NCBI RefSeq assembly: GCF_037975245.1
Contig: NC_092565.1
Span: 15,839,499-15,903,498, forward strand
Direction of reading: 5' to 3'
Length of the DNA stretch: 64,000 nucleotides
Origin: Apostichopus japonicus
Lineage: Eukaryota; Echinodermata; Holothuroidea; Aspidochirotida; Stichopodidae
Positions 7,046-64,000 of this stretch are shown here, in pieces. Every line of letters begins with the position of its first letter. Position 1 is the stretch's first letter. The notes under the pieces were generated by a model, which was not told the DNA's origin, did not search any database, and was given only the letters and a program-made list of their open reading frames with translations. The translations under genes and the position numbers were made by a program.

Positions 7046-7370
7046 GCAATCGTTGTTTCATAGGTTTTCGTTGATTTTTTCTCGGGTATCTTTGCCCTAC
7101 CATACATTGGAATTACTTTTAATCCATTCTGCGAGGTTCCGGTAAGTTGTAAACTATCAATGTCTGTAAATTCTGTGAGTGAAACGTAGGACCGACTTTA
7201 CGTTAAATGCGGGCAAATTCAAATTTAATGATATGCGTGATCGTTGATCATTCTTCGAGGTCACGGGGTCAGACTTCCAACTGACCCTTCACGTATCCAC
7301 TGTGTTGTAATTATTAATATCTGCCAGGCGCGGCGGAACGGAAAAATTATTGGGGGGCTAATGTGTTGAG

Positions 7371-7470
7371 ACTATCTAAGCGGAGCGCCACCATCGGTTG
7401 GCGCGGAGCGTACAAGAAAATTTTGGGTTTTTTTCAAACCCCCAGATGGCCGGAAACGGCACTTCCCGAG
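7371..7470 (+). repeat. Hairpin core module, copy a
   Basis: Core ACTATCTAAGCGGAGCGCCA followed by CCATCGGTTGGCGCGGAGCG, then an A/T stretch and CCAGATGGCCGGAAACGGCAC. The GCGCCACC/GGTTGGCGC arms can form a short stem. Other copies lie at 7708-7760, 57771-57867 (minus), 61815-61917 and 63346-63448. Confidence 0.8.
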
Positions 7471-7641
7471 TGTTTTATGCTGCGAATACCTAGCCCTTAA
7501 ATATGGGTCTCAAGCCTGCAATTTCTCAGATTGAACGAGAAAGTTTGTAAAAACATTGTAATTTGTATATTCGATGGTGTTTTAAGAGAGTAGCTAGTAC
7601 TCGTAGTGTACTCGCAAAGACGTTTTTGAGTGTAGTAAGGG

Positions 7642-8042
7642 CAGTGGCGGAGCTAGGGGTATTGGTCAGGGGGGGGGGACAAGAATGGTCTGTAGGGCGC
7701 TTTCGACACTATCTAAGCGGAGCGCCACCACAGGTTGGCGCGGAGCGTACAGAAAATTTTTGAATAAAGATACTCTATAGATTGCAGGAAATGACCCTTT
7801 CCGTGCCTTGCTAATTTGTAGATAAACGGAGAATAAATAGGTGTAGTCGCCATTTTGTCGGAAAATTACACCAACAGAATATGACAAATGTCAATAGGTA
7901 GATGAGAGCGCTATAAAATAGTCAATAATAGCGAATAAGTAAAAAGTAGTGAAAAGCTGAAAAGTGCGCCAGCAGTCCATTTGAGTCCGTCAGGGGGGGG
8001 GGGGGCATCTGCCCCACTGACTGTATGGACGCTCCGCCACTG
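7642..8042. mobile_element. hAT-like MITE nested in the 7325-8404 element
   Basis: Ends CAGTGGCGGAGCTAGG (left) and CAGTGGCGGAGCGTCC (right, complement), with an exact 8-bp duplication AGTAAGGG at 7634-7641 and 8043-8050. It is 401 bp, has G-runs just inside both ends, and carries its own partial copy of the hairpin core at 7708-7760. It lies wholly within the outer element, so it inserted later. Confidence 0.88.
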
Positions 8043-8412
8043 AGTAAGGGGATGTTGGAGAACTGGCTGAAATGAGGCAAGTCATTGTCCTAAGACGAAA
8101 TTGTGTTGCGCTTACCGGTACTCCACGGTACTTCCACTTTTCACGGGGCGTGAAGACGCGGTTGGGGTGACAATGTGGTCTATAGTCAGGGGACGGGCCG
8201 AGGGTCCCCCCAGCATTTACTAAAATTATTACATCTATATAGTATACGTGTGCATCGGACAGATCGACAAGTATGCATTGAAAAATGGGCAGATGCACGT
8301 TTCGGAGCCTTGGTAAATATTGGGGGGCTAATCATGCATTTGCCCCCTCAACTTTTTCATTGGGGGGCTGAGCCCCCCCAAGCCCCCCGGTTCCGCCGCC
8401 ACTGATATCTGC

Positions 8413-10410
8413 CTGTACAGTTTAGCCTTATGAAACCGTTTACAGATTCTCCGTCACTTGGAAGGAGTCTATTCAACCTGTGGGAACAGACACAGGTTTC
8501 TAATACTTAGGCCTACTACGTACTTTGGTGGGAAAAAAAATAATCTGAAACTTCAGTGACGTGGGTAAAAAGTATGACGGGAAGGAGGGGCGAGTGGTAT
8601 AGTGAATGGGAGGGATGTGGACATAAGCTCCAGTATGTTTGGGGTTTCTTCTCTAGCGGCAATTGCAAAGGTACAACCGTTCAACCTGAACATTTAAGCA
8701 GCCCATCCCCCAATTTACCAAAGTCTCTGAAAATGGGAGGGGACACCCTTCCTCTGGTGCAAATGTGCCCCAAAAAAACTTCTTTCATAGTAATCTACTT
8801 GATAGTTACATTTTGAAAATCAGCCGTTGTGGGCGGGACGTTTCCACTGTACGGTAATAACTACGGAATCGTATAAACGACATAAACTAAATGACATATA
8901 CATCTACATGCACAATCACACAGTAAAAACCATGCAAATCTGGGATTACCAACTTTTTTTTCGTCAGGGACGTCAAAAATATGTAAATTATAATTTCGTA
9001 CACTTTCATACCACCATGGTAAAAAACTATTTTTGATGAAACTTTGATTATCTGTGAAATGGTGGAAATCTGACTTTACTCTTCTATCCGAGTCAGATGG
9101 CTGTGCCAAGGAAGGGGGGGGGGGTGTCAGAGCCGTATATATATATATAGACACGGCTTTGGGGCATGCGTGGGGAGAGACATGTTTCCTCCAATCATGA
9201 TGCGTCCGCCGGCCCACCGAACATTCGGTTGCGGTAAAAGAAAACTAGAACACCTTCTCTTCTGTCTACATTTCCCAGATTTGGGTAATATTAAAGGCTA
9301 ACAAACTGCTACAAGTTCACCGGGCTTTGAAGTTTCAGTTATATTCAAAGTAGTCAAGTAGTAGCAAGAGACCTATATCTGAAAGCAGGGTCCAAACTCC
9401 AGGGCTCGGGACTACCTTCCAGAGAATTTCAGTTCCTCTTTCTGAAACTTTTGCAGGTTCAAGTGCCCCTGGGGCCCAAGGGCTTTAGTATAAAATTCCA
9501 TGCAGATTATTATTCGGGGTTTAATTGCTCGTTACTAGAGAACAGAGATATCTGAAAACGCTCAGCCTGAGCGTTACCCTGGGTCCCCTCTTGACCCCTG
9601 AGATACATTACATAGAAATTAAGGCGTTTAATATATACTAGTGTTTGCGCTCCAAAATCGCTTCGAAAGCGAACAAGACTGTTTAACAAATAATGCCATA
9701 TAGCTGTAATTATATTAAAGCAAGTTGCCGCTTATGTTGTTCAGGTAGCCTATAGTCACTACAGTCGATTGCCGAAAGCTAATTGGAGTTGAAATCGATC
9801 AACTTCCCTCTTGGAAAATGGTGAATGTGCGACTCTGGTTATACGACATTGAAATCTGTCGCAACTTTAAATTTCCTGTAAACTTAAAATTTCAATAAAT
9901 TACATTTTGGATCACCAGTGGAGTTTGGGGGAGGACGCGTTTCCCCGATCTCCTACCGGCCCCTAAATTTGCCCGTAATGTTCTCTTTATACAGGCGCGT
10001 TTTCAGTATTTTGCCTTCTTATCCTGAGGGCATAACTTTTTGCTTGCTCCCAGTTGTCCCCCTACTCTGAAAATCCTTCTAACGCCATTGAAGCTCCTAA
10101 CAAGTCCAATTCTTGTGAATTATCTATCGTTTTGAGGAGCGTTTCTCTCTTTCCAAATTGTAACGAAATGTCTGTTATATGCTTCCGTAATAAAGCTTCC
10201 ATAGACTTTCATTGAAAGAAGGGCGGGCGTGACTGATTCCGCAAAAGCAGAGCTGCACAAAAGTAGTAAACATTACTAAAAGGGTTGGCGTTGCGAGGAA
10301 GCTGGCATAGTCGACAGTTTTCTTAGAAGGGTAACACAGACGTAAGTGTTCGGATCGTTTTGCCAATTTTCTCATTTTCCAAGTGACAAAGCTTATCGAA
10401 GCATTTGAAG
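8413..10410. other. Region without recognised gene
   Basis: No coding exon was recognised. It includes a G-run with a short inverted AGAGCCGTATATA/TATAGACACGGCT motif at about 9105-9165 and a dispersed repeat at 9940-10000. The last part should contain the promoter and 5' UTR of the Skeletor-like gene, but no clear core promoter motif stands out. Confidence 0.5.
9940..10000 (-). repeat. Dispersed repeat, partner of 19733-19795
   Basis: The complement of this stretch contains GCGCCTGTATAAAGAGAACA and TTACGGGCAAATTTAG, matching 19738-19780 almost base for base. It is a shared end of an unclassified interspersed repeat. Confidence 0.65.
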
Positions 10411-41843
<31,433 letters not shown>

Positions 41844-42049
41844 ACAGTAGGTTTTAAAAAAAATGATTAAATTTACATCCTTCAGATACATATATCTAAG
41901 ATCAGCTCATTGCAAATTAGGCAACATTTGATTTTTGAAGAGTGAAAGTTGGAGGGTGTCAAGATGGGAATTCCTTAAATCACATTCTCCGTGAAGAGGC
42001 AGGTAGAAGGGCTTCTGTAGGTAGCCTTACAAATATTTTACATATTATG

Positions 42050-43060
42050 TCACTTACATATCCAACCCTGGCATCATTACCTTACCCCTTGTTTGACTTA
42101 CATTACCTAGCCTGACCTAATACCTTACCTATTATTTGACTTACACAGCTATCTAGCCATAAATGATATCTTTACCTATTATTTTACTATTCATTACCTA
42201 GCGTGACCTCATATCTTACCTATTTTTTTGACGTACACTACCTAGCCTTAACTGATACCTATACCTATTATTTTACTATTCATTACCTAGCATGACCTAA
42301 TACCTTACCTATTATTTAACTTACATGACTTAGCCTGACCTAATACCTTACATATTGTTTGACTTACATTACCTAGCCTGCCCTAATACCTTGGCAATTA
42401 TTTGACTTACATTACCAAGCCTGACCTAATACCTTACCTAATGTTTGACTTACATTACCAAGCCTGACCTAGTACCTTACCTATCATTTTACTTACATTA
42501 CCTAGCCTGACCTAATACCTTACATATTGTTTGACTTACATTACCAAGCCTGACATAATACCTTACATATTTTTGACTTACATTACCTAGCCTGACCTAA
42601 TACCTTGGCAATTATTTGACTTACATTACCAAGCCTGACCTTATACCTTACCTAATGTTTGACTTACATTACCAAGCCTGACCTAATACCTTACCTAATG
42701 TATGACTTACATTACCTAGCCTGACCTAATACCTTACCTAATGTTTGACTTACATTACCTAGCCTGACCTAATACCTTACCTATCCTTTGAATTACATTA
42801 CCTAGCCTGACCTAATACAAATTACTTATTGTTGGAATTACATTACCTAGCCATGACCGGTTTCTTACCTAATATTTGACTTTTCATTACCTACCCTGAT
42901 ATCTCCTCAATTTTTTTGACTTACTTTACCTAGCGTTTACAATATTTTCAACTAGAACTTGATTTGTACTACCTATTCGTAAATGATACCTTACCTATAA
43001 TTTGTCTTTCATTAACAACTTTACTTCATTTAACTTACCTATTATTTGAGTTACATTTAT
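42050..43060 (+). repeat. Tandem array, 43-bp unit
   Basis: More than 20 copies of a unit made of TTACATTACCTAGCCTGACC, TAATACCTTACCTA and a variable ATTATTTGAC. It starts about 200 bp after the Skeletor-like stop codon, so it may be transcribed in the 3' UTR. Confidence 0.95.
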
Positions 43061-46000: not shown

Positions 46001-48169
46001 TCTTATTGTCCATATACGATGAATATTGGTTCATGGAAATTGCTTTTGTGTGTGTATATCATCAATACAATTTATTCTTGTTTTATTGGCTTAGTTACCG
46101 TCAAAATATAGTAATTTTGTAGTATTTTCAATGAGAAATGTTGATACTTCAGTGATCTTCAATAGTATTAGTAGATATGTCTTTCAGCAAACTTCTCCTC
46201 AATGATGTTATCTTAACTGGTAAGTTTGTTCTTCATCTGAAATTGACCAGGTATATCAATGAGATCTCCTTAAACAGAATAGTACATATATCGTTTGTCA
46301 AAGATACAGAGGAAAGTGCATGTATTATCGGGGCTACACTTTGCCCAAACTTGTACCATTATTGTTAATAACACTAGAGTGTACCACTACACTCCTAGAA
46401 GAAGATGCAAAATAAATTCAGGTGGAATTAGCAATTTTGAGTAATTTTAGTTGCGACAATGTAACATCTTTATTCCTCCTCATGTACACAAACAAGTAAA
46501 CAGGAGATGTTTTTAGATAAATATTACACTGATCTTAAGATTACTTACACCTTAAGTTTGGTTGGGTGTAATTTGCCATACGTACGGTAGCACAAAATAA
46601 TAAACATACCATATGCATGTACAGCAGCACATGTTCTGTACATGGCATATTGCTATATAATATTACTTACGAGATTGTTCACAAATGTACAATGCATTTA
46701 TTAAAAGAGTTTTACAAACCCTACTCTCGCACCCCTCATTATATCCATGTTTTTAAGTATAGATCTTCACCTGCACATAGTGTTATGGATTTTTCACATA
46801 TGTCATATCGTAACAATTATCAAGTTTGTAATTTTTAAAGAATTTTTTTAGAATTCTCCGCACAAAATGTCAATAAATATATTGGGTTAATGTATGCTTG
46901 TTTTGAAATGGTATATTTTTCTTTATGTGCGTTAAGGTACTTAAGGATTCCTTTACAAAAAAAACGAAGAAATCACTATTAACTTTTAAGGCTTCTTGTG
47001 TTACTTCCCAATTATCGCTCCCTAAAGACGCCCTCTATTTAACTCAATCCCTTTCCCGGTTACTGAAAAGTCTCTTTTGCTCTGTCCCGTTTGATATCAA
47101 CAGATAAAGTCAGAAAACATTTTAGTTATGGTAATTGCAAGAGCTTGGATGCCATTAATGGTGGTAGGTAGGTCCCCATCATAGCAAGAACCGTCTCTGT
47201 CAGCAACCGTTATAGCGAATACATGAAAGTCTGCGCAAGATCGGCTTGAGGTATTGAAGACCATCTATCATGGTGACGGTTGTTGGCACCGTAAATTATC
47301 CTTGTGAGAATATCTGAACCCTACCCTACCCCGCCCCCCCCATCCCTGTTTAAGACTGGAGTAATCAGAAAAGATTTTCGAAATCTACAAATCATTTGTT
47401 TATATGGATGCAGAAGGGAAATTTCCCACATAAACAAAAGGAGGCGAGGGTGGCGGAAGCTCGTTGGGTCTACCTCCGAAACGAGCTTGTTTCTTGCATT
47501 TCATTGTAATAATCTTTTCGAGCAATGTTTATACAGTTTCATCCCTTTCATTGGTTCAATCTGGCTAAGAGGTATGTATATGGGCCAGGGGGGGGGGGTG
47601 GGGCACAGGTACATGTTTGAGTGGGGACCCTGTCTGATTGTCTAAATGGACATAGAAAAAGTCTTTCAGGTGAGGCAGGAAGGTGAGTACATCACGTGTG
47701 ACCGACTGTTCTTCACGTACAGATGGAAAGAAGGGTTATCGATCAACAAGCCCCAATCTTGGTCAAAGGTTACGTAAGCGAGGTACGCTGCATTTTCCGG
47801 TACTACCGGATTCATTTGACTTAATTTCCTTTCAAAGTGGTCCGAATGAAGGTAAATTATATCTTAAGTTAACTCCTGGACTTTTAAACATAAGATAGAC
47901 AATCTTAATTGCTTCCTTTTGGTTATGAGCCAATGGTATATATGGGCTTATAGTGATTAATTTGAAATAGGTAGTTTGTCATTGTTTTTTTTTGGTAGGA
48001 AGGCATTTACACAATGAGGAAATCAACCTTTTCGTGGAGTAGTTGAACTCTTTACCAATTAACTTTATCATTTCAAAAAAAAAAAAACATTCTTGACTGC
48101 GTACCCTGATATATCTAAGCTACTCGCTCCCCTTCTCATAAAATTAGAACAGTTTCTCATCTAACTAAA
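43061..48169. other. AT-rich intergenic region
   Basis: No exon with family resemblance on either strand. AATAAA hexamers occur (one near 45475), but the poly(A) site of the upstream gene cannot be fixed. A diverged duplicate pair lies at 44395-44530 and 45465-45595 (shared CAGTACCC and GGGATGTAATTA-like blocks). G-runs occur at 47585-47605. Confidence 0.5.
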
Positions 48170-51100
48170 ATGTTGACTTTTAAATGTGCCATCTTTTTGG
48201 GAATACTTTCAATGTGCTTCTGTGGAGCATTTGGATGTGATCGACGCTCGGTGGAGAGGGTCTACGTCAATGTTGATACTGGTAAGTATTCCTTACTACA
48301 TTCTATAGAATAAGTTTTTAAAGAAACGTGGTGTGAAGTGGGCGGGGTTGGAGGGGTGCTTTGTGACCTTTGCTGCCCATCTGTACAGAAAAGAATCACG
48401 GTACGGTACCTCGTCAAAATGAAAAACCCATGGAAGCCGTAACTGTAACATTTATGGCGCATATATGCAACAGACATGAGTTTCTCGATGTAACGGATAG
48501 GCAGCTTCATTGCCGTTGGTTACTTTGTTGGAACGCCGCTATCTTCCCAGGTTCCTACATCTGTATATAATGGTAGGAGGGTACGTTACATGAATGTCAA
48601 GGAATCATTTGATATGGTACCTGAAAACAATCCGTTTCTCTGAAGTATACAAAAATCGCCATTTGGAATGGGAAAGTAAAACAAGGTTTGCGAATATAAC
48701 AGTATAATACATTTAATTTGTGGGACAAATTTCTGTATGACATGAGAAGGTGAATCACTCAATTACTATACAAGAAGTATAGAATCAGGCAAGTGGGTTG
48801 TGTCTTTGCTAGAATGAGAGTGTCCGATAATTATGAGTGAATATTACATATCTTGTTCAGAGAAATGCAAAGTCATTGAACGCAAAATGTAGCTCGAAGG
48901 TTGTCATTAGTTACGGAAAATGTTTGTCAGGAGTAGTGGCGTATAGGCAGAGGAGGTAGGTGGGAGCAAGGGCGTAGGAACCGGGGGGCTGGGGGGCGCC
49001 AGCCCCCCCAGTGAAAAATGTGGAGGGGCGGAAGTATCATTCCACCCCCCCCCCCCGGTTCGCAAGTCAGAAAACCCCTTCTTCATTTCCAAATGAGAAA
49101 AAAAATCTCATTTGGAGCACCAAATTGCATCTTAGGCCAGGTGAAAATACAAAATTAAGTTTACAAAATGGAGTGGGTATTGAAGTGTGCTATATTGCAA
49201 CAAATTGCATCTGAGGCCACCTGGAAATGCAAAACTAATTCCAAAGGGGAGGGGGACACCCCCTCCCCTTAGACCCCTCCCCCAGGCCGGCCATCAGTGT
49301 TCAGCCCCCCCCCCCCACTCAAAAGTACCTTCCTACGCCACTGGGTGGGAGTAAGGGTGGGATCTCCCCACAGACGTTTTCAGGTACGAAATGGGTTGGC
49401 AAAAGATATAAATAGCCATGATATATATGCTATTGGATAGGACACTTGTTTTATAGAACTGTGTGATTTGCTTCTCAGAAGGTTTGTTTTTTCAATTAAG
49501 CGATATCCTCAGCATGGAGAGAGATTTCTCTGACCAAGTTAACTTGATTCAGTGATTGTCAAAGTTCCGTGCGTCGTATGTAACTGGATTGTCGTTTATT
49601 TAATTAAAATATAAACATATTTTCATTTGGTTCATGCATACACTATAGATGTAAGCGATATATACCTACGTGTAACTATACCCACACGTATATACTGTTA
49701 CGTATTTGTAATCGTTTCATATCGTTAATATGTACGGTACAGGGCAGTATATCCACTGAGGACAATATTACACTATAGGTAATGTTACTTTAGGTTGTAT
49801 GATATTACGTAACACTGGCGGATCCAAGGGGGGGCAAGGGGGCCATGGCCCCCCAAAGGTGAGCCAAAAAGTGTTTCCGAACATCCGCTAAAACATATGA
49901 TTGGAACTTAAAAAAAATCGAGAGGAATAGCAGTGGTAGACTAGTCTAAACCTTTTCGTTTTCTGGTTTAAAATTAAATGCAGAGCTCCCAACTGACCCG
50001 CAATTCGCGGGAATTAGACCCGCATTCTAACACCCAAACCCGCTGACCCGCACAAGCGTCCGAAAAAAACCGCATTGTAATTGTCAAGTATACATAAAAA
50101 AATTTGCATCAAATTTTGACTTAGCAACCATCATTTCTTTAGCATTTAGCATAATAGAGTATAAAACCTCCTTTACAGCATCATTTGAACCTCAAATTAG
50201 CCTATATTTCTTTTCATTTGGGGCGAGCAGCGAACATTTTCATGCCACGGGAAAGAATGAATTATCACCTACTATTCAATTTATTGATGTTACACACAAA
50301 AAAATGCATATTTCTCAGAAAATTTTGGGTGACAAAAGCCTTTCTAAGTGCCACCATTTTACATGTAGGCATCACCAGGATTCCAAAAAAATCCAAAAGG
50401 GGGAGGGGGACACCCCCTCCCCTTATACCCTTCCCCCAGGATGGCGATTCGATGCATGGACCAGCATTTGCATTCTCAAGAGTTGGGAGCTATGTAAATG
50501 TATGAGCATGAGGAATTACAGTTTAACACCATTTTGCAGTTACAGGCTGGTTGTAAGAAATTTATAACCTATGAGAAATAAACTTTCTTGAGAAAGATGA
50601 TCCCAACTTTGTTTTATAAATATTTTAGAAAATTACACCTGGGAAACATTTTTTTTAGAAGTAAATTTACATCACCATTGTACACTTTTGTCGCACCAAA
50701 TTGCATCTGAGGGCATTCAGCAATAGAAAATTTTCCAAAGGGGAGGGGGTCACCCCCCCTTAGACCCCTCCCCCATATCACTCTAATGCCACTTTGGCCC
50801 CTCCCAAACAAAGGCCCTGGATCCGCCAGTGTTACGTAATAGTATATTACTTCATATTTTAGTAGTCTTAGTGATATAGGTAAATCTCAAATTCCCCCAT
50901 GATCAACTGTGGTTTGATCGCTTATCTCCAATTTGCCTCTGAAAGCAATATCATAGCAATTGTTGGTGTTTTGGGGGTAAATCTTTTTTTCTCTTTAATC
51001 CAAACTGATCCCATACATTTAAGGGGATCAAATAAAACGAGTGCATTTGTTGCAAAGGGTTTAAGATTGTGTCTTCGAGAAAGAAAACAAATGTAATCAA

Positions 51101-53870
51101 TTAATTAATTTGCCTTTTCTTTACAGTTGATATGCAAGAGGTATGTTTCGATGGGTTGGGATGTTTTAACAACAGCCTGTATTGTCACCGATTCGGTTTC
51201 CCTCCCGACCATCCGGATGCGACAAATACTCGGTTTTACTTATACACCAGATCAAACCCAGATCAACCGGATCAGCTAGATAGAAACGACAAGAAGACAT
51301 TTGGTCGTTTTGATCCTGTCCGAGAAACTAAAATAATCTTTCACGGTTACATGGATAGCCACCAAGTATCACATATGGTCAACCTGAGAGAGTCGATTTT
51401 ACGCACAGTAAGTGAAAAGATTAATAACGACAGGGGCGGATACAGGTTTTACAAAAGGAGGGGTGTGTGGCTTTCAGGTTGTTGATATCGACTCCTTTAT
51501 AGATGGGGGTGGGGTGGGGGTGGTGGGTATATCCCCAACGGAAGAAAACTCAGACTGGTAGTCGTGCTAATAACTACCTTAATTTTCGTGTGTAGCTGAA
51601 AAAGTATGCACACTCGCAGGCTTTCCCCTGGATATCCGCACACTGAATGAATGCCTACAAAATGATGAAGTTTTAGTTGCAGTTTGAAATTGACCGTAAC
51701 CACTGTCAGATAAATTTACTTTTTAATACCATTTTTGCGTTTGATTGCTAGCATTTGTCAAACAAATGTACGGAAGGTTAACTTTAATCAGGCATGTTGC
51801 AACAGGAAAGTTATTATCTTCAATAACTCATTTTCCAATATATTGTAGTTTTTCTTCAGTGACCAAAGTACACCAAATATTTTAGTGATTTTGTTTTAAT
51901 ATTTCTATTTAGCTTAAATAATGTCTTTGATTCAATTATAAGATTATTAAAACAATGGATTTACCATGGCGAACAGGGCAGAACTAAACATACAGACGTC
52001 ATCATGGAATTGGTGGTAAGAGAAAAAAAATCAGATATTTTAAATTTGAATATCGTAAAGTAAAATATAGTTGGATAATTGCCTAAATATAAGCGCAAAG
52101 GTTTGTGCTATGTTGTAGCACTATCGATGATATATCGACACTAAAAGTATATAGAAAGACATACAGAAGCGCATATAAACGGAATGCTTGACTGAAGACA
52201 TTTGATGTGTAATTTTAATAAGTAACATGTTTAAATCGTGACTCCTATAGGCTATACTTTATAATATGATGCGCTGTTTCCTATATATATGATTATTGTT
52301 TACACTCTCACAGGCTTCGTAGACAGGCCGGGCACAGGGGAGGCGACTTGTCCTTCCCACCAAACGTCCACCCCAGCGCAGACTACATGTTTGCCCGGGT
52401 CCACCTAAGCAACCATCACATGTACAAAAACTGCCCTTCCGACATAAACGCGGTCCCTCCTACTCAAAATTCCTGGCTCCGGACCTGTTTATTAATATTC
52501 CAAGCTGATGATGTCATTACATTTTACTCTTTACTTTATTCCACCCACAGGATAACGTTAACCTGATTATGGTCAATTGGAATGGAGGGGCTGATGGACA
52601 CTATCACACAGCACGTCTAAATATTAGAGTCGTTGGTAGACAGACCGCTACCATGATAAAGTTCATCAGAGAGAACTTTAACTCTGATATGAATATTCAT
52701 TTAATTGGTCATAGCCTTGGAGCTCATGCTGCTGGGTATGCAGGCGAGGAAGCTGGTGGAATACAAAGAATCACTGGTATTTAAATATATTCTTCCAAAT
52801 TCTTGCAAATTTAATATATTTACTATTTATTTGGACAAACGACTGTGTATGGGAGGCTATCACTTTGGAGTTATATCCTTACCACATCACGTGACTTTAT
52901 GTGAAACTGAAGTAGATTGCTCGTGCGCAGTTGTAAGAAACAATAGCAAATTCAGTCGTAAGATATAAGCAAACCTTTCTCCATTGATGGCGATCAAAAT
53001 AAATTTAGATAACATGTGCCAAGCCGTCATGACGTCATCGCAAGCGAATTACAATACTGTTCTTGAGAAGCAGTACTCGCGAGAAGGAACTTCGATATAA
53101 CGATCAAATCAAATTGATATGAAAGCAAAATTAAAAGAAATTCATATTCCGTCAAGCTGCTTTGAGATATTGAAGATATGTTTTACAATCTTATATCGAC
53201 AGGGCTGGACCCGGCTGGTCCTTGGTTTAGAAATGAAGTGAATCCTTGCCGCCTAGACATCACAGATGCTTCGTTTGTCGACGTCATACACACCAATGCA
53301 AACGCATATGGGTTTGGCCTCCCGGATCAGGTAGGATTTCGGTGATATCAAAATAGGACTGAAGGGCATATTTTGATTAACCGTAACATAACACCCCCCC
53401 CCCCCAAAAAAAAAAACAGTGGGAAGCTGCAAATGTAGATTTTTCGAAGCGTAATTTCTAGTACATATTGAAGCCGTATCAATGTGGTAGGTTAGTGTTC
53501 ACGTAACTGCATGTATTAAGTCGGTAACATGATCCAATTTTATCATTCCCAAAATCAAACCATTTCTTGTTTTTAACAGCTTGGCCACCAAGACTTTTAT
53601 CCAAATGGCGGGTCGAGCATGCCAGGATGCGGTATGTTTAGCGTTATCTGTCATCATCTTCGCAGTATTGGATATTTCATTGCAAGTATGAGCTGTCCAT
53701 TCACTGCGTACCGATGCGACAGCTGGGAAGATTTTACTTCTGGTGTTTGCAACACTGACTGTTCTAACGGAGTGTGTGCTGAGATGGGATATCACGTAGG
53801 GCAAAACCAATCAAGTGGAAAATATTACCTGAGAACCGAGAAATATGAACCATTTTGCTCTTCAAACTAA
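48170..53870 (+). CDS. Secreted pancreatic-lipase-family enzyme, short-lid, 345 aa
   Basis: Exons 48170-48281, 51127-51407, 52551-52776, 53203-53330 and 53580-53870 join in frame with GT-AG borders. Residues 1-22 are a signal peptide (MLTFKCAIFLGILSMCFCGA). The N-terminal VCFDGLGCF and TRFYLYTRSNP motifs are typical of the family. The catalytic triad is complete: Ser186 in GHSLGAH, Asp209 in GLDPAGP, His275 in CHHLRS. FHGYMD, RLDITDASFVDVIHT and GHQDFYPNGG also match. The lid loop between Cys266 and Cys273 is only six residues, and there is no C-terminal PLAT domain; both features are usual in phospholipase A1-like members rather than triglyceride lipases. It probably cleaves lipid esters outside the cell, with substrate inferred. 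Three hAT-like elements sit in intron 1. Confidence 0.95.
48967..49343. mobile_element. hAT-like MITE (377 bp)
   Basis: Ends CAAGGGCGTAGGAA (left) and CAGTGGCGTAGGAA (right, complement), with an exact 8-bp duplication GGTGGGAG at 48959-48966 and 49344-49351. G/C runs lie just inside both ends. The G/C-run module occupies 49113-49298, including a repeated AAATTGCATCT motif. It sits in lipase intron 1. Confidence 0.88.
49813..50831. mobile_element. hAT-like element (1019 bp, outer)
   Basis: Perfect 14-bp ends CACTGGCGGATCCA, flanked by an exact 8-bp duplication TTACGTAA at 49805-49812 and 50832-50839. The G/C-run module is at 50693-50775. No transposase is visible. Another TIR element (49981-50494) is inserted inside, so the original insertion was about 500 bp. 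Confidence 0.92.
49981..50494. mobile_element. TIR element nested in the 49813-50831 element
   Basis: Ends CAGAGCTCCCAACT (left) and CATAGCTCCCAACT (right, complement) match at 13 of 14. TAAATG flanks both sides (49975-49980, 50495-50500). It carries its own G/C-run module at 50350-50450 in the same orientation as the host element's copy. The direct repeat is six bases, so the superfamily is less certain. Confidence 0.78.
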
Positions 53871-54069
53871 ATAAGCAGGCTGGACACTTAGAATAGTATC
53901 TTGTCGAGCAATTCATAGTTTTAGATTATGTTCGTAATTTAAGGTGTTGACTATTAAATAATGATGACAAAATCAAAACTTGAAGCAAAACGGAAATACA
54001 TCAGTTTTGAAATTAATCGAAGTTTTAGACCAACATGTTTGTTATTATACAAATAATGAATGGTTATGA

Positions 54070-54190
54070 GTGCAATAGTGCAAATATTTCATGAGTTGAA
54101 AGATGTAATTTGTTCCATTCAACGAGGCGCAGCCGAGTTGAATGGAACAAATTACATCTTTCAACGAATGAAATATTTGAACTATTGCAC
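54070..54190. repeat. Near-perfect hairpin, 54-bp arms
   Basis: Arms 54070-54123 and 54137-54190 are complementary with few mismatches: GATGTAATTTGTTCCATTCA pairs with TGAATGGAACAAATTACATC. The loop is GAGGCGCAGCCGA. It lies 200 bp after the lipase stop codon, so it may be part of the lipase 3' UTR and fold as RNA, or be a small foldback element. Confidence 0.92.
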
Positions 54191-55854
54191 GAATGGAAAC
54201 CATTCATTATTTGTTTTATACAACATATTTTATTAAGATGGGTAAAATGCACTCATGCAACAGATTGTTTTGAACAGACAGGTTTCTCTGCTCTCTTACC
54301 ATTGAAAAAAGGGCTACCAAAAAAGTATAACCCATGGTTCTATTTCATAGAGTGGAATAGAGCGGATTTTGCATGCAATCAACGAGCCATTGACCAATCA
54401 AATGACCAGAATGCAATTAGATGTTGTATAAACTCCTTTAATATATATAACTCATGAATTGCACTGGTGAACCACGTTATAGAGCATCACGGATACCAAA
54501 CTTAACCTGAAACCAGTTCTAAAATATGAAACCTTGTTGCAGGTACTGTATGGTTTCAAAGCAAGCATTACCATTAGCATTGTCGAAATGAACGTTATCC
54601 CCTAAAGAAAGAATAAACATGTAAAACAGTCAAACTTATATATACATGACTTTCACCTGTGATTCTTATATACGGTGACCGGCTTGCGTATTTTTTTCTT
54701 CCCCCAGGACGAACGTGGGTTTCTGGTTTTTTCAGGAATTTACAAATTCGTTTGAAATCAGAGTTAGGGTTTAGAAAGTGGGAGACCGGCTTTACACACC
54801 TTCTACTTGAAATCAGTGACCTTTATACACCGCTCTAGTTGATGTGTTTGTTGGAAGGAACTTGTAACAGATGCAGTGTATACGTTTTCACGATGTAGGC
54901 TAACGATTATCCTCCATGTATTAAAGGATTGGTTCAGGTGTCTGACATGTCTATCTTGTATGAAAGAGCTTAAAAAGACAAACAGAATAGTGAAGAAACT
55001 ACCATGATAGAATTCTCCGTTAAGGAGATATCACATTTTGAAGATTTCAAAATAAATTTCTTTGCAAATGACTGGTGTAGAAAGACTAACTGTGAGGGTG
55101 TGATGTCACATCCTCACTTCCTTAACATGTGTCAATATATTTCATTAAAAAATAATTACATTTTTTTTCACAAATCTAAAAAATATAATCAAACATTCTT
55201 CAGATGCTAAATCTCAAATACTTCCCTTGACACATAAGAGATCTCCTGACGTATATTTTGGTTGTAAGTCATAAAATCTTACAAAATATTTTAATAAAGT
55301 AACAAAAACTTTTCAGGAATGTGAGGATATGACGTCACAGCTAGTCTAATTTCAGCAGTTTCTACACAATCAGATAGAACTTTAAACTTGAATATCTCCT
55401 AAACGGAAAAAGATATTTGAATAATTTCTTCACTATTGGGTTTCTTTTATTGCCCTCTTTCATATAAGATAAACATTTGTGACACCTAAACTATTCCTTT
55501 AATCAATTGCACAAAGCTACATGTTGGCAATAAAATTTATGTTGAAACGATCGTTGACTTAAATGATTGACTAATGATTGTTTTCATCAGACTAATTAAC
55601 TATCGCAAGTGAAAAATGTTCGCATCTTTCAGTTTAGTAATCTAAAATGAAATATCGCTGATTTCACTATACACGTCTATATCCGTTACCTGAAAATTTG
55701 AGGTATTATGGGCCGGGGAATTTCATATTGTTGACAATGTTATTGTATAGACATTTCGCGCTTCTGCTATTGCTGATTGCTATTGGTCAGTTCCTTGTAT
55801 CTGTAGGTTGAGTTAGTTTGAATTGGTTTTTCTTTCAGATACCCTTGTATACAA

Positions 55855-56150
55855 TTACTAATCTCTTCTAAAAATGTCAATACACCTTATCGTCTCACCA
55901 TAACATTACTTATACCGGACTAAACTTTTGGAATCATGCATTCCTGATCATTTAAAACTCCCTTGTAGCAAATCCGCCTTTAAGAATAAGGTAAAACGTT
56001 ACTTAATTAGTCGGCTGGCGATTAATGCTTTCATCTAAGGCTCACAGACCTTATGTGTTTGTGTTCATCTATTCTTCTTGCTTTGTTTTGCCTTGTCTAG
56101 TTTTGATAATTATACTTTACGTAATTCTGTTATGAAATGGAAGCCGCCTA
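55855..56150 (+). pseudogene. LINE ORF2 C-terminal remnant
   Basis: Translation with a frame change reads LYRTKL, then HLKLPCSKSAFKNKVKRYLI and SRLAINAFI before a stop. The 'LP..L...S...FK.KVKRYL' ending is common at the C-terminus of non-LTR retrotransposon ORFs. It continues into a divergent tail. The family is uncertain. Confidence 0.6.
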
Positions 56151-56903
56151 CGTTTACAAGCTTTGTATAGCTATCTGTGGGTTCCTCCAAAGCTCGTTCA
56201 CTTTGTTATTTTGTATTTTGTTACAACAAAATGAGTTTAAATAAATGTTACGAAATCGAATTATCATCTCATGTTTATAGAACATGTGTGAACTACGTTG
56301 ATAAAGTGTTATATCAATAAATATGGAATCAACCAATCACGTAATCACGGAGATGCGTCTTTTGGAAGAGCTAAATTAACCCGATTGCCTGTGGACTGTT
56401 ATATTTCAAATGAACGTTATTTTAGAATTGTAATATTCCACCAAAATGTGCTAAGTGAACTGGCCGCATTATTTGAATAAAAGATCTCTTCATAATTTCC
56501 TTTTTGTGATTGATAGTAAGTTACAGAACGCTTCTGACCATATAGGTGTGTATCGAGTGGACGAGGGAGAGAGTGGACGGAAATCATTCAGCAAATGTAG
56601 AGTTTACAATAATGATCACAATTTCACGCCAGGATTTCATAAGTTCAAATATCCTTGTACTCACGTTTTCTCTAGTAATTTTTTCTTGTGTGTGTTTCAT
56701 ATGTGTGAGATCTCTTATGTGACAATATAGGCTGCAATTATAATGTATTTTTAATTAATGACGTAAAGTCGAGAAATAATCGCTTTACGGCCGTTCGGCC
56801 AAGAACATGTTCCCCTTCAAGGTGACTCGCGATACACATCTGACGATGATCGCTGCACAGTCTCGATGCAAGCTGAGGACTGGGTTTGAGAGCGGATCAG
56901 TCG

Positions 56904-57930
<1,027 letters not shown>

Positions 57931-58325
57931 ATCAGTCGTTTGGTTTTACGTGCCCAGTTCTATCCTGGCTGATTTAGAAAGTATCATGTTCCTTGTAGGA
58001 AAACCGTGGTATACTCACCTGACAAATGATGATCACACAGTCTCGATGTAAAGGGACTGGGTTTGAGAGCGGATCAGTCGTTCGAATGTTTGGTTTTTCG
58101 TGCCCAGGTACTTTCCTGGGTGCCACTTTCTTAAAAATGAATTGTTCCTTCCCATGAGATTCGTGATACACATCTCACTATCATCACACAGCCATAGTCT
58201 CGGTGCCAAGGAGAGGGTAACAATACAAGAAAAAGACTGAATGACTCGAATCATGGGTGTAATATTTGTTGTTATGTTCAATTGTCTTGCTTCCTAATGC
58301 TGAATGACATATCGCGAGTGGATCA

Positions 58326-58720
58326 GCTAATAATAATAATAATAATACACAGTTCTTATAAAGCGCAAATACACACTTAAGTCTCAGTGCGCTGATTATT
58401 ATTAACCCCTGGTCATTGGTAACTTGTCACACCCACACACCAAAGTGTGCACAATTCAATCAATCTCTCCTGGGGCACCACAGTGCACCACAACCACGTG
58501 TCCCCTGGGGGACTTCCCATAGGGTGCAGCCACAAACCGGCGCACGCAACTATATTTACAAGTTACCTCGCAGGTCCCCATTTATACACCTGGGTGAAGA
58601 GAGGCAATGGAGATAAAGCGCCTTGCCCAAGGACACAACGCAATGATCTGGCCAGGGCTCGAACCTGTAATCCTTAGATCACAAGTCCACTGCCTTAACC
58701 ACTTGACCACAACGCCCCCC
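58326..58720 (-). repeat. tRNA-derived SINE, minus strand (about 390 bp)
   Basis: On the minus strand the head reads GTGGTCAAGTGGTTAAGGCA (A-box region TGGTCAAGTGG), followed by GTGATCTAAGGATTAC and B-box GGTTCGAGCCC. The body contains CTTGGGCAAGGCGCTTTATC, and the element ends in (ATT)n. The copy at 28880-29165 is shorter and more diverged. Confidence 0.88.
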
Positions 58721-58897
58721 CCCCCCCAGCTAGGGAGCGATGTCTTCTAAAAGTATGGTATAGGGATGCAAATGCGGCTTTCAGGAAGACTATGAATTTA
58801 CAAAATGCCCCTGAGCAAGTTTCTATGCTGCCAACGGAGGAACAAGTTCAAAGTATTAACCCTAAGATATTGACTTGGTATCAAAGTACCACATCCA

Positions 58898-58903
<6 letters not shown>

Positions 58904-58945
<42 letters not shown>
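58904..58945. repeat. (TA)n microsatellite
   Basis: About 20 TA dinucleotides. Confidence 0.95.
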
Positions 58946-58946
<1 letters not shown>

Positions 58947-59929
58947 CAAACTATGAAAGAAACAATTACTATACAAGCTAAAGAAGAATAAGTGACTAAA
59001 TCTGCTGCTGCAGTTTATACAACTTGGGAAATAATTAATCCTGCAGCGCCTGACTATGACGATGTTTCATATACAATATGGTATACTCAACGACTTGGCG
59101 CACTGTATTAGCTATAGAGCGAGACTTTCTTTTTCACTTCGAACCCCAGTGAAGGCTTTTGCCGATCTTTTGCACCTCATGCTTGCATTAGGAGCCCTAA
59201 CTATTAGATAATCAGCATAATATCTCAACCGATACAGTGGCGCGACGGCTGAAAGAGCAGATATAATGTTTTAGCTCAATATCGGATAAAATTCACTACA
59301 TCAAAATTAAATTCAAACGTAAGATTGAGGGTATGTGGCGATTTTATATATTTTAAGGATTTATCATCTTTAGGCTGTTGTGAAAAGGAAAAGGTCAACG
59401 GTATTTCGACAGATCAGTCCGTTACTGAATACGAATCCATGGTCCTGTTTTGAAACCCTTCTATGATGGGCGGTATAGCAATTCCGGACGTAAGAAAGAG
59501 ACCTTGTAATTGTTTTACATTAAAAACACTGCTCCATTGCAGAAGTGATAATTGTAACGACCCATGTAACCCGAACGGATAGTTAAAAAATGTAGTCCCA
59601 AGCCTTATTTTACTTAATTTAGTTTTATGCACGTGTAATCCTTACTAGATCGTGGTGGACTGGGCATAAATAATTGATATCGCCTCAGTGATCCCGGTGA
59701 CGCTGGGACTTTGAACCGAGTGAAGCATTTTGGGCCCATGGTGAAACTATACTGCATCATTTCAGATCAAGAGGAAATTGGCGCCTCGGGTCTAGCAATA
59801 TATCGGTTCCCGAGTCGGTAAATATTATGACAAACTTAACGATTATAAAATCATGCAGCCGATGCTTACATTCTTCATAACGGCCATAACGGCAATAAAG
59901 TAGGATTAATATTCGGCATAACCAGTATT

Positions 59930-60160
59930 TTCTAATAGGGTTGTGAATGAGTGGAACGGTTTGCCTTAGAAAGTTGTACTTGCAAGTAGTGTCAATGGGT
60001 TTAAGAATGCTTTGCACAAGCACTTTAAGCATTGTAATCGGGTCTGAGTGTTTGTGTCTTCAGTTTTTTTCTCTCTCCTATATAGGGTCCTTGATGGGGA
60101 CAATTGAGTGTCCCCCTGATCCTTTTTTTTTCTACTAAACTAAACTATAACTAAACTAAA
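59930..60160 (+). pseudogene. CR1-like LINE 3' fragment, copy 2
   Basis: Matches 26815-27030: RVVNEWNGLP is followed by an in-frame stop in place of Glu, then VVLASSVNGFKNALHKHF and the same 3' UTR (AGGGTCCTTGATGGGGACA) with a CTAAACTAAACTA tail. It is a 5'-truncated dead copy, only about 230 bp. Confidence 0.88.
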
Positions 60161-60626
60161 TTTTGCTGTCCGAGTCATTGACTTTCACCAATTATCGCTG
60201 CTGTAGGCTGGTTTCAATGCACGCGTCAATTTTACCACCAAAAAGTGCAAGTTTATGCCATTTACGCCAGTTTATGCCAGATCTTTCTGTGAGTGGTTAA
60301 TGGTACACATTTGGGACCGGGACCTAGCGTGCATGCGACTCCTTATCTTACGGTTATCTTTCACCGCATACTTTAACCAGGGACTTGCTATCTTAATGGC
60401 AACTTCCTGCTTTAACAACGCTATAGCTTGCGCTCAGTAAAGCAATTTAACTTTGACTTCTGTATGGCGATTTGTTTTTGCTGCGCTTTTTGGCACCCAT
60501 TTGCTTATCATAACCATTTTGGAACGGGGTTGGCTTTCCCCAGTCTAGCGTTTTTCTCAATTCCATAATGGTAACTGTAGTTTGAAGTTACAAATTTGTT
60601 CGCGCTAAACCAAACCAGAGGAAAAC

Positions 60627-63600
60627 ATGGCGAATATAATAGAACAGGTGCCCAGGTTTTATTCTCAACAATTAACAAAACTCTTCTGGGATACTTTTCT
60701 TGAAGCATTTCATATATGTCTTTTGAAACTTATCGTAGTCACCTGAAGTTACGAATAACATATATTTAGAGCGATGTTTACTACAGAACCATGTTTTAGG
60801 CTAATCTCAATTCACCTTAATATGTTAGGCTCTTAGAAACATGTCCTAGTGTTACATGTAAACATGTACCGAAGTCTAGACTTCACTTGGCTTCACCTAA
60901 CTTGTGTAGGCCTACAGCACAGATCACATGTAGCAAAATAAGAGTAAAACGAAAGATTTGCTCAAAAATTGTCGAGATTATTTACTAACTATTGTACCTT
61001 TTATGTTTTTGTTAGGGCTGGTTTGATTGATCTTGTTCACATCAAAGAATTATAGAGTGTTCTTCATTCATTATTAATTGGAATGAATGAGATGAATTCT
61101 CAGTATAGTCTTTGGATTTAGCCTCAGCCTAGACTTAATCCTAAGCTAGCCTTGGATGCCTTGAATATTATGGTGGTATACATTAACTTCACATGTCCCC
61201 TAACTTTGTATAAGTACTGTCTCGTACAAGGCTATGTTAGCCTAGCTGTCAAATTATAGCCACTTTTTCAATCACAATTTTAATCTGCAAAGCATTAATG
61301 AAATGGCTTAATTGCCACAGTGAAGCAAGGATATATTAATTTTGTATTTGAGACACTTAACTAGATTATTCCGCCCAATTTGTGAAATTATACAGTAAAC
61401 TTCCAATGCATGTGCAAAGTTAGGGAAATTTTTTCCTGCTCTGAGCATTTTGCTTCCCAACCTTTACATGTGTAACTCAAGATTTCTATTTCTGGCAGAA
61501 TCTGGTCAAACCATCCATGAAGTAGCATAGCTAAAGGATAGAACTAAACCACTGAGCAACATGAGGGATATTTTTATCACTGCGATACTTGAAAAGAACA
61601 ATAAAAGAAACTGTCGCAAATTTAACATATACCATCATACTAGATCGGGGGGGGGGGGGGATAGGCTGGCCCAACTTAGAATGAATTTCCATGCTTTGTG
61701 AGTTAAATAGGAGGAATAGCTCTTCAACCTTTAGCCCCTGCCTAATACTAGTACCAGGGGTGGCGATTTGTTTCAAATATGGGGGGGGGACATTTGCTTG
61801 GGTGCAGGCGAATTACTATCAAAGCAGAGCGCCACCATTGGTTGGCGCGCAGCGTACAAGAAAATTTCTGGTTTTGATAGCCCCCCAGATCACCGGAAAT
61901 GGCACTTCTCGGACTTGAAAATGACCAACCAGATGTTTACTTTTGCCTGAGAACCAAGTTTTTCCCAATAGTTTTTTTTCATTCATAACCTTTTTCAAGA
62001 TTGTCATCAGTCACACTTCATGTTCGACCTCATCGCATCTCCTGTGGATCATTGCTTTTGTAGGTTATTCTACGTAACGCCCCACAATACCCGTCAGCCC
62101 CACTTTTCAAGGTTTTAAGCCCATTATTTGTTCAGAATTTGAATAATAAATTCACTTCAAATCATACCCATAATGTTGCACAAAATTTCATCTATGGACA
62201 ACCAATATTGAAAAACCACCTTCAATCCCTAACAGACCGGTCAAAATTGCACGAATAGAGGGAAATATGATGCAGGATGTTGGTCAAGGAATTTTCGAAA
62301 ATTCAGACACAGTTAATTTCTTGGTGTACATATATTAAAACCTCTTATAACGGCTACTATAAAATTATAACCTCCTCCCCTTGGCTACGCGCCTGCGGTT
62401 AGAAATCTTGTAGGAAACAGGTCAAATGGAAACCCTGTGAACCCATATCGATGTGGATCATATATGTGATTGTACGTACTTACACTCATACACAAGAGAT
62501 GTACAGACAATATGATAATAATCATGAGTGACAACATGCTATACGGTCAGTGGTCACAAAAACGACCACGAAGAGTCATTTACCTCATGCAGCATGTGTT
62601 GGATGAAGTTTTAGCCACCGCAAAATATGATTTGGATAAATAATCTCACGCATTATTTTCTATTTATAGCCACACAAAAAAATCATGCCACCAAATATTG
62701 GTGGGGGGGACACTAGTTACTATTAGATATACCGTATATCCCCCACCTAAAATATTGGGGGGACATATATATACATATATATATATATATAATATATATA
62801 TACAGGGTTATAGCCAAGCCGGCCGGCGGCGGCCGGTGGTAACCGCCACTCACGCCTGCCGGCCGGCATTGGAAGTGAATAAACAGTCCACCGGCCGGCA
62901 CAAAAAAATAGTAAAATGCTTGTGAAATACAACAAAAGTAACAAATTTATCTTTCCCTTGCCGTAAAACATGATAATAGCGTCACCTTTTTCTGTTATTT
63001 ACCAAAATACCCTTGACCCCACTGGGGCGTTGCCCTGGACCCCACCAGGGGCCCTTAAGCGGGCCCCTGGACCCCTGGCCGTGAGATGCAAGAGCTTCGC
63101 TCGCTACGCTTCGCAAATTTATTTAACCAGCACTCACAATCTCCTAGCTATAACCCTGTATATATATATATATATATATTTTCCTTATTCATCGGCAAAC
63201 CAAATTTCATTACGGATGCGGTCCGTCTAGGTATTCATTTCGAAAAAAGTAAAACCTATACTTTCGGCTGTAGTAACAAATTGTGACACGGTTAGACAGG
63301 CGCCATGCGAGAGATTTGCCAGGTAGGGGCGAAGCTTGTAGGCAAACTATCTAAGCGTAGCGCCACCATAGGTTGGCGCGAAGCGCAAAAGAAAATTTTG
63401 GCCGAAAATGCCTCCCAGATCGCTGGAAATGGCACTTCCCAGGCCTTGTAAGTTGCATCTAAGCATTTTCTATTTTGAAATTATTAACGATATCATGAAA
63501 AAACTACAAAAAATATGCTAAAAAAAAACTATGCCACCAAATATTGGGGGGGATATTAGATACTATATCCCCCCACCTAAAATATTAGGGGGGACATGTA

Positions 63601-63971
63601 CCCCCCATGATCGCCGCCCATGACTAGTACACAGCGCATCATCGGTGTCATGATCCAACAACCATAATGCTATGACTGAGAGCCCACTAGTAAGAGGCAT
63701 GTCGTCAAGAGCAACTGTGGACAAAGACACAATTGATAAGTGGGGTTGCCTTCTTTATGTCAAAGCTTTGTCATTTCATTTCACGTTCATCTACTACCCA
63801 GCTTTCCCACTTTTTCATTCACTTTAGGACCTGGTACAGTTAGAAAGACTTTGTAAGCAGCTCTACGAGAGTCCTGACAGTGCACAGAGAGCACTAGCCG
63901 AAAAAGCACTGGTTGAGTTTACCAATGCTGCAGATCTCAACAAATGCCAGATGCTCTTAGAAAGAGCTGAT
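60627..63971 (+). CDS. XPO7: Exportin-7, 5' partial
   Basis: Exon 63828-63971 encodes [17 protein letters not shown] followed by [16 protein letters not shown] and [10 protein letters not shown], closely resembling the N-terminus of vertebrate exportin-7 (importin-beta family nuclear transport receptor, first HEAT repeats). It is flanked by TTTAG and GTAAGT and is in phase 0 at both ends. I propose a first coding exon at 60627-60647 (MANIIEQ), also phase 0, fitting the short leader that precedes this region in the family; its donor CAG|GTGCCC is weak, so this exon is less sure. The rest of the gene lies beyond the right edge. The intron holds a composite transposon. Confidence 0.85.
61755..63622. 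mobile_element. Composite hAT-like element in exportin-7 intron 1 (1868 bp)
   Basis: Left end CAGGGGTGGCGAT and right end (complement) CATGGGCGGCGAT are flanked by an exact 8-bp duplication ACTAGTAC at 61747-61754 and 63623-63630. The interior is duplicated: hairpin core copies at 61815-61917 and 63346-63448, and TGCCACCAAATATTGG-type right-end blocks at about 62687-62765 and 63530-63600, all in the same orientation. A separate TA-flanked element (62803-63158) lies between them. Confidence 0.85.
62803..63158. mobile_element. TA-flanked TIR element nested in the composite
   Basis: Perfect 12-bp ends CAGGGTTATAGC sit between TA dinucleotides in an ATAT-rich target. It is 356 bp, strongly GC-rich inside (repeated GCCGGCCGGC and CCCCTGGACCCC), and so differs sharply from its AT-rich surroundings. 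The superfamily is undetermined because the target is itself (TA)n. Confidence 0.75.
63828..63971 (+). CDS. XPO7: Exportin-7, exon with first HEAT helices
   Basis: 48 codons with consensus acceptor and donor. The blocks [17 protein letters not shown] and KCQ.LLER are the identifying signature. The next exon should continue with the SQLLA-type helix but is outside the window. Confidence 0.92.
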
Positions 63972-64000
63972 GTAAGTCCACACTTTGCAATGTACTTATC

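Follow-up and report, generated by a model that had tools for sequence, protein, structure and literature searches.

Nine transposon-like elements, named here by their left coordinates, were identified in a 64,000-nucleotide stretch (the window) of contig NC_092565.1 of the sea cucumber Apostichopus japonicus (positions 15,839,499 to 15,903,498, forward strand), and two interior blocks, a hairpin core (M1) and a G/C-run block (M2), recur among them. We read M1 and M2 as alternative, exchangeable, cis-acting subterminal modules of hAT transposons, with a probability of about 0.57. Both occupy one slot, which lies about 34–90 nt in from a terminus; in elements that have a transposase, the slot follows its stop codon. 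The reading is carried by this slot, by the identity of a module across families, by an end type that carries either module, by an interior that occurs under two kinds of end, by M2-bearing transposases that do not form a clade, by the lack of target duplications belonging to the modules themselves and by insertions of elements into the slot.

Abundance, anatomy and position of the modules

The initial annotation had reported the two recurring blocks, and five positions of each were located: M1 cores at 7371, 7708, 57847–57866 (minus strand), 61815 (with two mismatches in 20) and 63346, and M2 blocks at 25577, 31048, 49274, 50428 and 50693–50775. The assembly (671.6 Mb, 35 contigs) was searched with 20-base cores, allowing up to two mismatches, and with reversed patterns as controls. 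M1 (ACTATCTAAGCGGAGCGCCA) was found at 10,592 + 10,670 = 21,262 places (control, 0) and M2 at 2,882 + 2,678 = 5,560 places (control, 3 + 1); M2 makes up ~0.08% of the genome. A chance origin of elements and modules was ruled out by Markov resamples and by the reversed-pattern controls. No exact match to one M1 pattern was found in viral contigs.

Copies outside the window (loci numbered L) came from non-random samples: M1 from the ~5.5 Mb at the start of contig C1, taken together with the window, and M2 from contigs C1–C3 with the exact core. Twelve M1 lineages (six majority strings and six single copies; 66 pairs) were compared. Identity was 46% over the 30 nt outside M1 (45% in shuffled sequences), 92% over the 44-nt core (50% shuffled), 51% in the stem region between the conserved blocks and 81% over the inner 22 nt (45% shuffled); in the next 40 nt inward, homology faded (53% vs 46% shuffled). 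M1 is therefore ~90 bp long and sharply bounded on its outer side.

Among elements with both ends and a duplication, the near-end M1 lay 41–90 nt in for 26 of 27 copies, the exception being L044 (10 nt); in the list behind this count an AT-rich candidate at L012 was left out, rows 15/16 and 26/27 each list one element twice, and row 3 represents two loci. A CA-type terminus lies 34–86 nt from the start of M2 in 19 of 20 sampled copies; two of those 19 termini were each seen a single time.

The initial annotation had suggested that the modules might be spreading themselves; its main proposal would have failed if each were an independent insertion with its own ends and target duplication. No duplication of 8–9 bp flanked the module at any of 82 M1 and 20 M2 copies, and duplications of 7 bp (1/82 M1, 1/20 M2) were within the level given by swapping, so that self-mobile modules were rejected as a candidate. 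If each module were an independent small mobile unit inserted in hAT elements, the sharp outer boundary and the many hosts would be expected, but slot and orientation are fixed and duplications are lacking; we regard this explanation as highly improbable.

The inner parts of M1 and M2 look alike by eye; a test by local alignment was weak (p 0.036 and 0.049), and a common origin is not claimed. Nor is anything claimed for a GCGNAGC motif, common by eye to M1 and some ends. At L025 (1501–2062) three M1 copies stand in tandem at ~190–245 bp spacing, the inner two diverged.

Decoupling of ends and modules

Typed by their outer flanks, 83 M1 copies (78 from C1, 5 from the window) fell into F1 (17), F6 (14), F7 (13), F3 (12), F2 (9), F8/9 (5) and others (13). 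M1 occurs under more than 10 end types by sequence, about eight of them with both ends and a duplication (F1–F5, F8, F10 by eye, and F15). Where both were found, the two ends of an element agree, which the scan itself demands. A single family with continuously drifting ends, the alternative raised in the initial annotation, was rejected: the ends form discrete types.

The clearest single case of exchange is the end CAGGSGCGTATCCAGGATTTTC, which carries either module. With M1 it was found at 844 + 844 = 1,688 exact places (C or G at position 5; controls, 0), and the G form made up 24 of the 100 M1 matches listed. The G-form end CAGGGGCGTATCCAGGATTTTC was found with M2 at 254 + 225 = 479 places (controls, 0). 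The M1- and M2-bearing versions of this end are identical at 32 of 37 positions and diverge near the module boundary. Two weaker pairs with a common end were L048/L090 and F3/L057. The reverse arrangement, one interior under two kinds of end, was seen when the 61755 element was compared with 12 F6-type loci: ~556 bp of interior are held in common at 85–89% identity, the ends are unlike, and the match breaks 7 nt outside M1 in 11 of the 12 loci (3 nt in L027).

Ends and modules are decoupled, one end type occurring with either module and one module under many end types, and exchange between families is supported. The earlier proposal that ends change or are exchanged faster than interiors stands for the ~90-bp modules, but the greater part of the interior is not conserved from one family to the next. 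At L057 (240–350), a hAT 3′ flank with an F3-like end (CATAGGCGTAGGAGCC), a different GC-rich piece occupies the module slot and is possibly a third module.

Transposases associated with the modules

Ten frames or strings of the window were checked against Pfam. The only one above the cut-off was the relic in the 30306 element, a hAT transposase that matched Dimer_Tnp_hAT (PF05699, hATC) at E 1.4e-4 on its joined pieces, the separate pieces giving no match; DUF7762 and SF1-HH matches were weak and below the cut-off. L011 matched PF05699 at E 5.8e-11, its hATC reading toward M1. A genome search with PF05699 gave 633 candidates, of which 150 were scored and all 150 matched.

About 1.2 kb downstream was fetched for 20 of these 150 candidates, picked mainly for long frames and not at random. 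M1 was found in four flanks from two lineages (the near-copies L061 and L067; L068 and L070, identical here) and M2 in four from three lineages (the related L058 and L060; L059; L063). In all eight, the module follows the stop codon and precedes the 3′ terminus. L061 (796-aa frame) and L067 terminate in CAGGCGCGGCGGAACGG, as the 7325 element does, and carry the same M1; L059 (752-aa frame) terminates in CAGTGGCGTAGGAAGG, as the 48967 element does, and carries the same M2. Because the same 3′ end and the same module follow the L061 and L059 frames, 7325 and 48967 have candidate autonomous partners, and a comparison of the 3′ ends makes it plausible that the L061 and L059 types are these partners.

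Transposases were compared over ~340 C-terminal residues (162 for L072). Over 93 nt, M1 of L061 matches that of L068 at 90% identity; the two transposases are 29% identical. The transposase of L059, which carries M2, is 33% identical to those of the M1-bearing L061 and L068, and 24% and 23% identical to those of L058 and L063, both with M2. The M2 DNA of L059 is 65% identical to that of L058 and 61% to that of L063 over ~150 nt, and M2 of L058/L060 is 73–77% identical to that of L063 over 89–95 nt; the M2 copies of these transposase lineages matched one query at 72–80%, pairwise identities being lower. In the transposase tree L059 joins L061 (89/88) and L058 joins L063 (100/99). One clade for the three M2 transposases was rejected by the approximately unbiased (AU) test, with p 0.0009 for eight rows and 0.0001 for seven rows (without L072).

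The same data bear on simple common descent, by which one module-bearing hAT ancestor passed its module down under selection and its ends and transposases diverged. All carriers with a transposase are hAT, CANNGGCG is common to most window ends, M1 copies differ by family, M2 of L059 is just 61–66% like other M2 copies, and a single M1 clade was not rejected. Rejection of a single M2 clade speaks against such descent, as do the end with two modules, the interior with two ends, and an M1 so nearly identical between such distant transposases. We hold this explanation to be improbable.

Nested insertions and composites

The 7642 element (F1) lies within the 7325 element (F2), and the identical nesting site was found at L015, L018, L024 and L032; with the window, five of 17 F1 copies share it. 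A second site was shared by four of the 17 (L006, L019, L036 and L047). At these four loci M1 copies form an F6-F1-F7 series ~700 bp apart, with CGCGGCGG before F1 in all four and exact duplications in L006, L019 and L036. The 49981 element within 49813 has the same flank in the composite copies L085, L092, L096 and L098. Composites have moved as units, because the outer duplications differ where outer ends were found.

F2 elements were found inside M2 in three of the 10 M1-sampled F2 copies (L031, L032 and L046) and, from the M2 sample, at L099. All four have the same orientation, with M1 toward the outer end. Beyond F2, M2 continues at L031 and L046; at L032 the right end was not located, and only one side of L099 was retrieved. 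Given the genomic share of M2, three in 10 by chance has a probability of ~7e-8, a figure that ignores shared composite descent. The earlier statement that no element has both modules holds within the window but fails genome-wide, L031, L046 and L099 having an M1 element inside M2. M2 hairpins are possibly an insertion hot spot for F2 elements, and such insertion offers a concrete route for module replacement in the same slot, which may have been used.

Insertions of this kind, into a sequence that makes up so little of the genome, and composites that amplify as units would also be expected if the modules were passive, that is, GC-rich homologous tracts that recombine often and hairpins that act as insertion hot spots, giving no help in mobility. 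Conservation of M1 is uneven, however (92% and 81% in the blocks, 51% in a stem that is mostly complementary), whereas passive copying would diverge more evenly. Passive modules are unlikely, to our judgement, though they deserve some weight.

Predicted folding of the modules

Both modules are able to fold. The inter-block stem of M1 reads GAGTA/TACTC, GGGTTT/AAACCC, GGCA/TGCC, GGTTT/AAACC or GTCT/AGAC, depending on the lineage, and its complementarity is kept despite these differences (right-arm swap, p 0.006; 11 lineages, the arm split having been chosen post hoc). These predictions are suggestive of a secondary structure of the modules.

Compensatory stem changes and the location after the transposase stop codon could also point to a role in RNA, with the module as a structured 3′ element of the transposase transcript that affects stability or 3′-end formation or is a source of small RNA. 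Against this, the window contains no match to a known structured RNA in Rfam at gathering scores, and short elements without a gene retain the module. We consider a role in RNA quite unlikely.

Exchange and possible function

We favor the reading that M1 and M2 are exchangeable cis-acting modules, by which many co-resident hAT families carry one or the other in a single slot 3′ of the transposase gene. Recombination between families would have swapped the modules or, equally, the terminal 35–80 nt outside them. The exchange could have come about by template switching during gap repair, by ectopic gene conversion, or by one element entering the slot of another, with a deletion afterwards. For Galileo, structural variation has been ascribed to such template switching and to ectopic exchange (PMC4168063; this and the papers below are cited from excerpts). 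The modules would have been retained for their aid to mobilization, most likely as accessory transposase-binding DNA or as an extruding hairpin that aids assembly of the transposase on one end, a part that subterminal sequence plays in Hermes and Tol2.

By analogy with Hermes, M1 and M2 probably serve as accessory sites at one of the two ends. In cells, Hermes depends on ~220 bp or more at each end, and its BED domains bind subterminal repeats asymmetrically (excerpts of PMC10368747). Hermes and Tol2 offer a parallel: their mobilization requires sequence beyond the terminal inverted repeats, with BED-domain binding and asymmetry between ends. Hermes differs in having 4-base subterminal motifs and one transposase, whereas here an M1 of ~90 bp is common to transposases 29% identical. 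Because the excerpted paper argues that binding of an auxiliary transposase further inside the ends is unlikely for Hermes, a host factor or a DNA structure could act at the module instead, and a function in mobility is put forward by analogy.

A further, tentative proposal, which we think could be right but would not yet favor, is a common pool of interchangeable 3′-side cassettes (M1, M2 and perhaps the L057 piece) serving transposases of different clades, the cassette being the long-lived unit and being replaced by insertion into its hairpin.

Several observations weigh against exchangeable functional modules. The F1 end was never found with M2 (0 places) vs 1,960 places with M1, and the end CAGTGGCGGATCCAGG was found with M1 at 0 places. 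No F6-ended copy with both ends and a duplication was found in the scan, the F6 end being recognized by an abrupt change of flank between copies. In twelve of the 20 hATC flanks, neither module was convincingly present over ~1.2 kb (L057 was weakly M1-like and L069 weakly M2-like); therefore hAT elements do not need M1 or M2 in general. M2 DNA is only 61–77% alike between transposase lineages, and its sharing may therefore be old and kept by constraint, not due to recent exchange. A single clade of M1 transposases was not rejected (AU p 0.175). The tree is small, with eight long-branched transposases, and one M2 origin appeared in 3% (eight rows) and 10% (seven rows) of bootstrap trees. As to folding, z-scores span only −0.7 to −3.5, two of 11 stems were poor in the arm-swap test, the RNAalifold consensus fold was weak, helices outside the inter-block stem were weakly supported, and covariation was modest: four pairs changed on both sides (equaled in 48 of 500 shuffles), and the score was reached in 9 of 500.

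The kind of pattern is already known, since the CMITEs of Acropora corals (Wang et al. 2010, PMC2872659, in excerpt) show it in the piggyBac superfamily. There, families of miniature inverted-repeat transposable elements (MITEs) with different terminal repeats have an internal region more conserved than the ends, they form tandem arrays, and nesting yields new elements. CMITEs (piggyBac/TTAA, ~100 bp) have one internal region, described as of unknown origin and mostly not found in the sole autonomous partner identified. The present elements likewise have an inner region more conserved across families than the ends, for the ~90-bp block; they lack TTAA duplications and piggyBac ends, the duplications being of 8 bp and the ends of CA type. 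They differ also in being hAT, in having two alternative modules in a defined slot 3′ of the gene and in lying beside open transposase frames. The hAT setting, the two alternative modules in one slot, the nearby open transposase frames and the evidence for exchange are what the present case adds.

The elements mPing, Ping and Pong belong to the PIF/Harbinger superfamily. Internal sequence alters the transposition frequency of a MITE in mPing/Ping as well, but in the excerpted source these are rice elements only, with no block common to distant families (PMC9921582). Highly conserved domains of short interspersed elements (SINEs), with the V domain found in the MITE MER6, are likewise conserved blocks in differently built elements; they are described mainly from retroposons (PMC6887750, in excerpt), whereas M1 and M2 are in DNA transposons and had no Rfam match in the window. 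Among the matches listed from open-licence PMC texts, no report of hAT modules of such kind was found.

The ends are the usual basis for sorting MITEs into families. Since a functional-looking block here assorts in part independently of the ends, relatedness can be misjudged when classification relies on them. If one cis-acting part does work with several transposases, this would help to explain how short elements borrow their movers and how new families are born in a genome where module copies number more than 20,000. Since candidate open-frame transposases with matching 3′ ends were identified, the pattern known from corals becomes a testable system.

Elements of the window

A scan of the window for CA...TG termini with 8-bp duplications gave seven candidates, vs 0–1 in each of 20 Markov resamples (six summed over the 20). 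Six of the seven were elements listed earlier (7325–8404, 7642–8042, 30306–31153, 48967–49343, 49813–50831 and 61755–63622), and a relaxed search recovered 56904–57930 (exact 8 bp) and 25181–25641 (7 bp only). Of the nine elements with inverted ends and direct repeats first proposed, eight were found in this way and 49981 by eye; owing to nesting, the nine are not independent. Target-site duplications of 8 bp were present in seven of the nine, six exact and one (30306) mismatched. The short inverted ends begin with CA as in hAT, partly by construction, the scans having demanded CA...TG. The termini had been said to share little beyond CA; this is contradicted by CANNGGCG, which fits at least one end in seven of the nine, the ends of 25181 and 49981 not fitting. 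These two, with duplications of 7 bp and 6 bp, miss the 8 bp of hAT and are therefore not filed there, their superfamily being not settled; the other seven have hAT-like ends.

All elements and modules below are on the forward strand except at 56904. The non-autonomous hAT element 7325–8404, of end type F2 (CAGGCGCGGCGGAACG/CAGTGGCGGCGGAACC; duplication ATATCTGC), has M1 at 7371–7468, 46 nt inside its left end, and holds the F1 element 7642–8042 (CAGTGGCGGAGCTAGG/CAGTGGCGGAGCGTCC; duplication AGTAAGGG), whose M1 (7708–7800, inner limit approximate) lies 66 nt inside the left end. The 25181–25641 element (ends CAGGSATGAGAC; 7-bp duplication ATTCAAT) contains an outward-reading M2 (25509–25598), the core of which ends 45 nt from the right end; this end type recurs with M2 at L088, L091 and L097. 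The hAT element 30306–31153 (duplication TGGAATAT/TGGAAGAT, one mismatch) comprises a decayed transposase C-terminus followed by M2 at 31021–31067, 86 nt from the right end. The hAT MITE 48967–49343 (CAAGGGCGTAGGAACC/CAGTGGCGTAGGAAGG; duplication GGTGGGAG) has M2 at 49197–49295, ~50 nt from its right end. The hAT element 49813–50831 (CACTGGCGGATCCAAG/CACTGGCGGATCCAGG; duplication TTACGTAA) has its own M2 at 50693–50775 and contains the nested 49981–50494 (ends CAKAGCTCCCAACT; 6-bp duplication TAAATG, by eye) with M2 at 50384–50453. On the minus strand, the hAT element 56904–57930 with F3 ends (CATAGGCGTACG/TATAGGCGTACG; exact 8-bp duplication ATCAGTCG) has an inward-reading M1 (57743–57866) 64 nt inside its right end. 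The hAT element 61755–63622 with F5 ends (CAGGGGTGGCGATTTG/CATGGGCGGCGATCAT; duplication ACTAGTAC), which shares the ~556 bp of interior with F6-ended elements, has M1 at 61815–61911, 60 nt inside its left end; its second M1 (63346–63451) belongs to a nested remnant of an F7-type element (63296–63503).

Other features

A separate element at 117–789 of the window has ~100-bp inverted arms ~85% alike, ends (CAACGAGGTAAATG) unlike those of the other window elements, and near-duplicate flanks ATATGAAT/ATTTGAAT. Tandem arrays lie at 37165–37729 (56-bp unit), 40283–40946 (mixed, 28–168 bp) and 42078–42899 (43 bp). The stretch 63828–63972 is exon-like and, by eye, presumably exportin-7-like; searching the PDB sequences yielded no hit at E 0.01. 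On the forward strand of L040, from 6189 onward, lies an open frame of 486 aa that, judged by eye only, looks like a reverse transcriptase.

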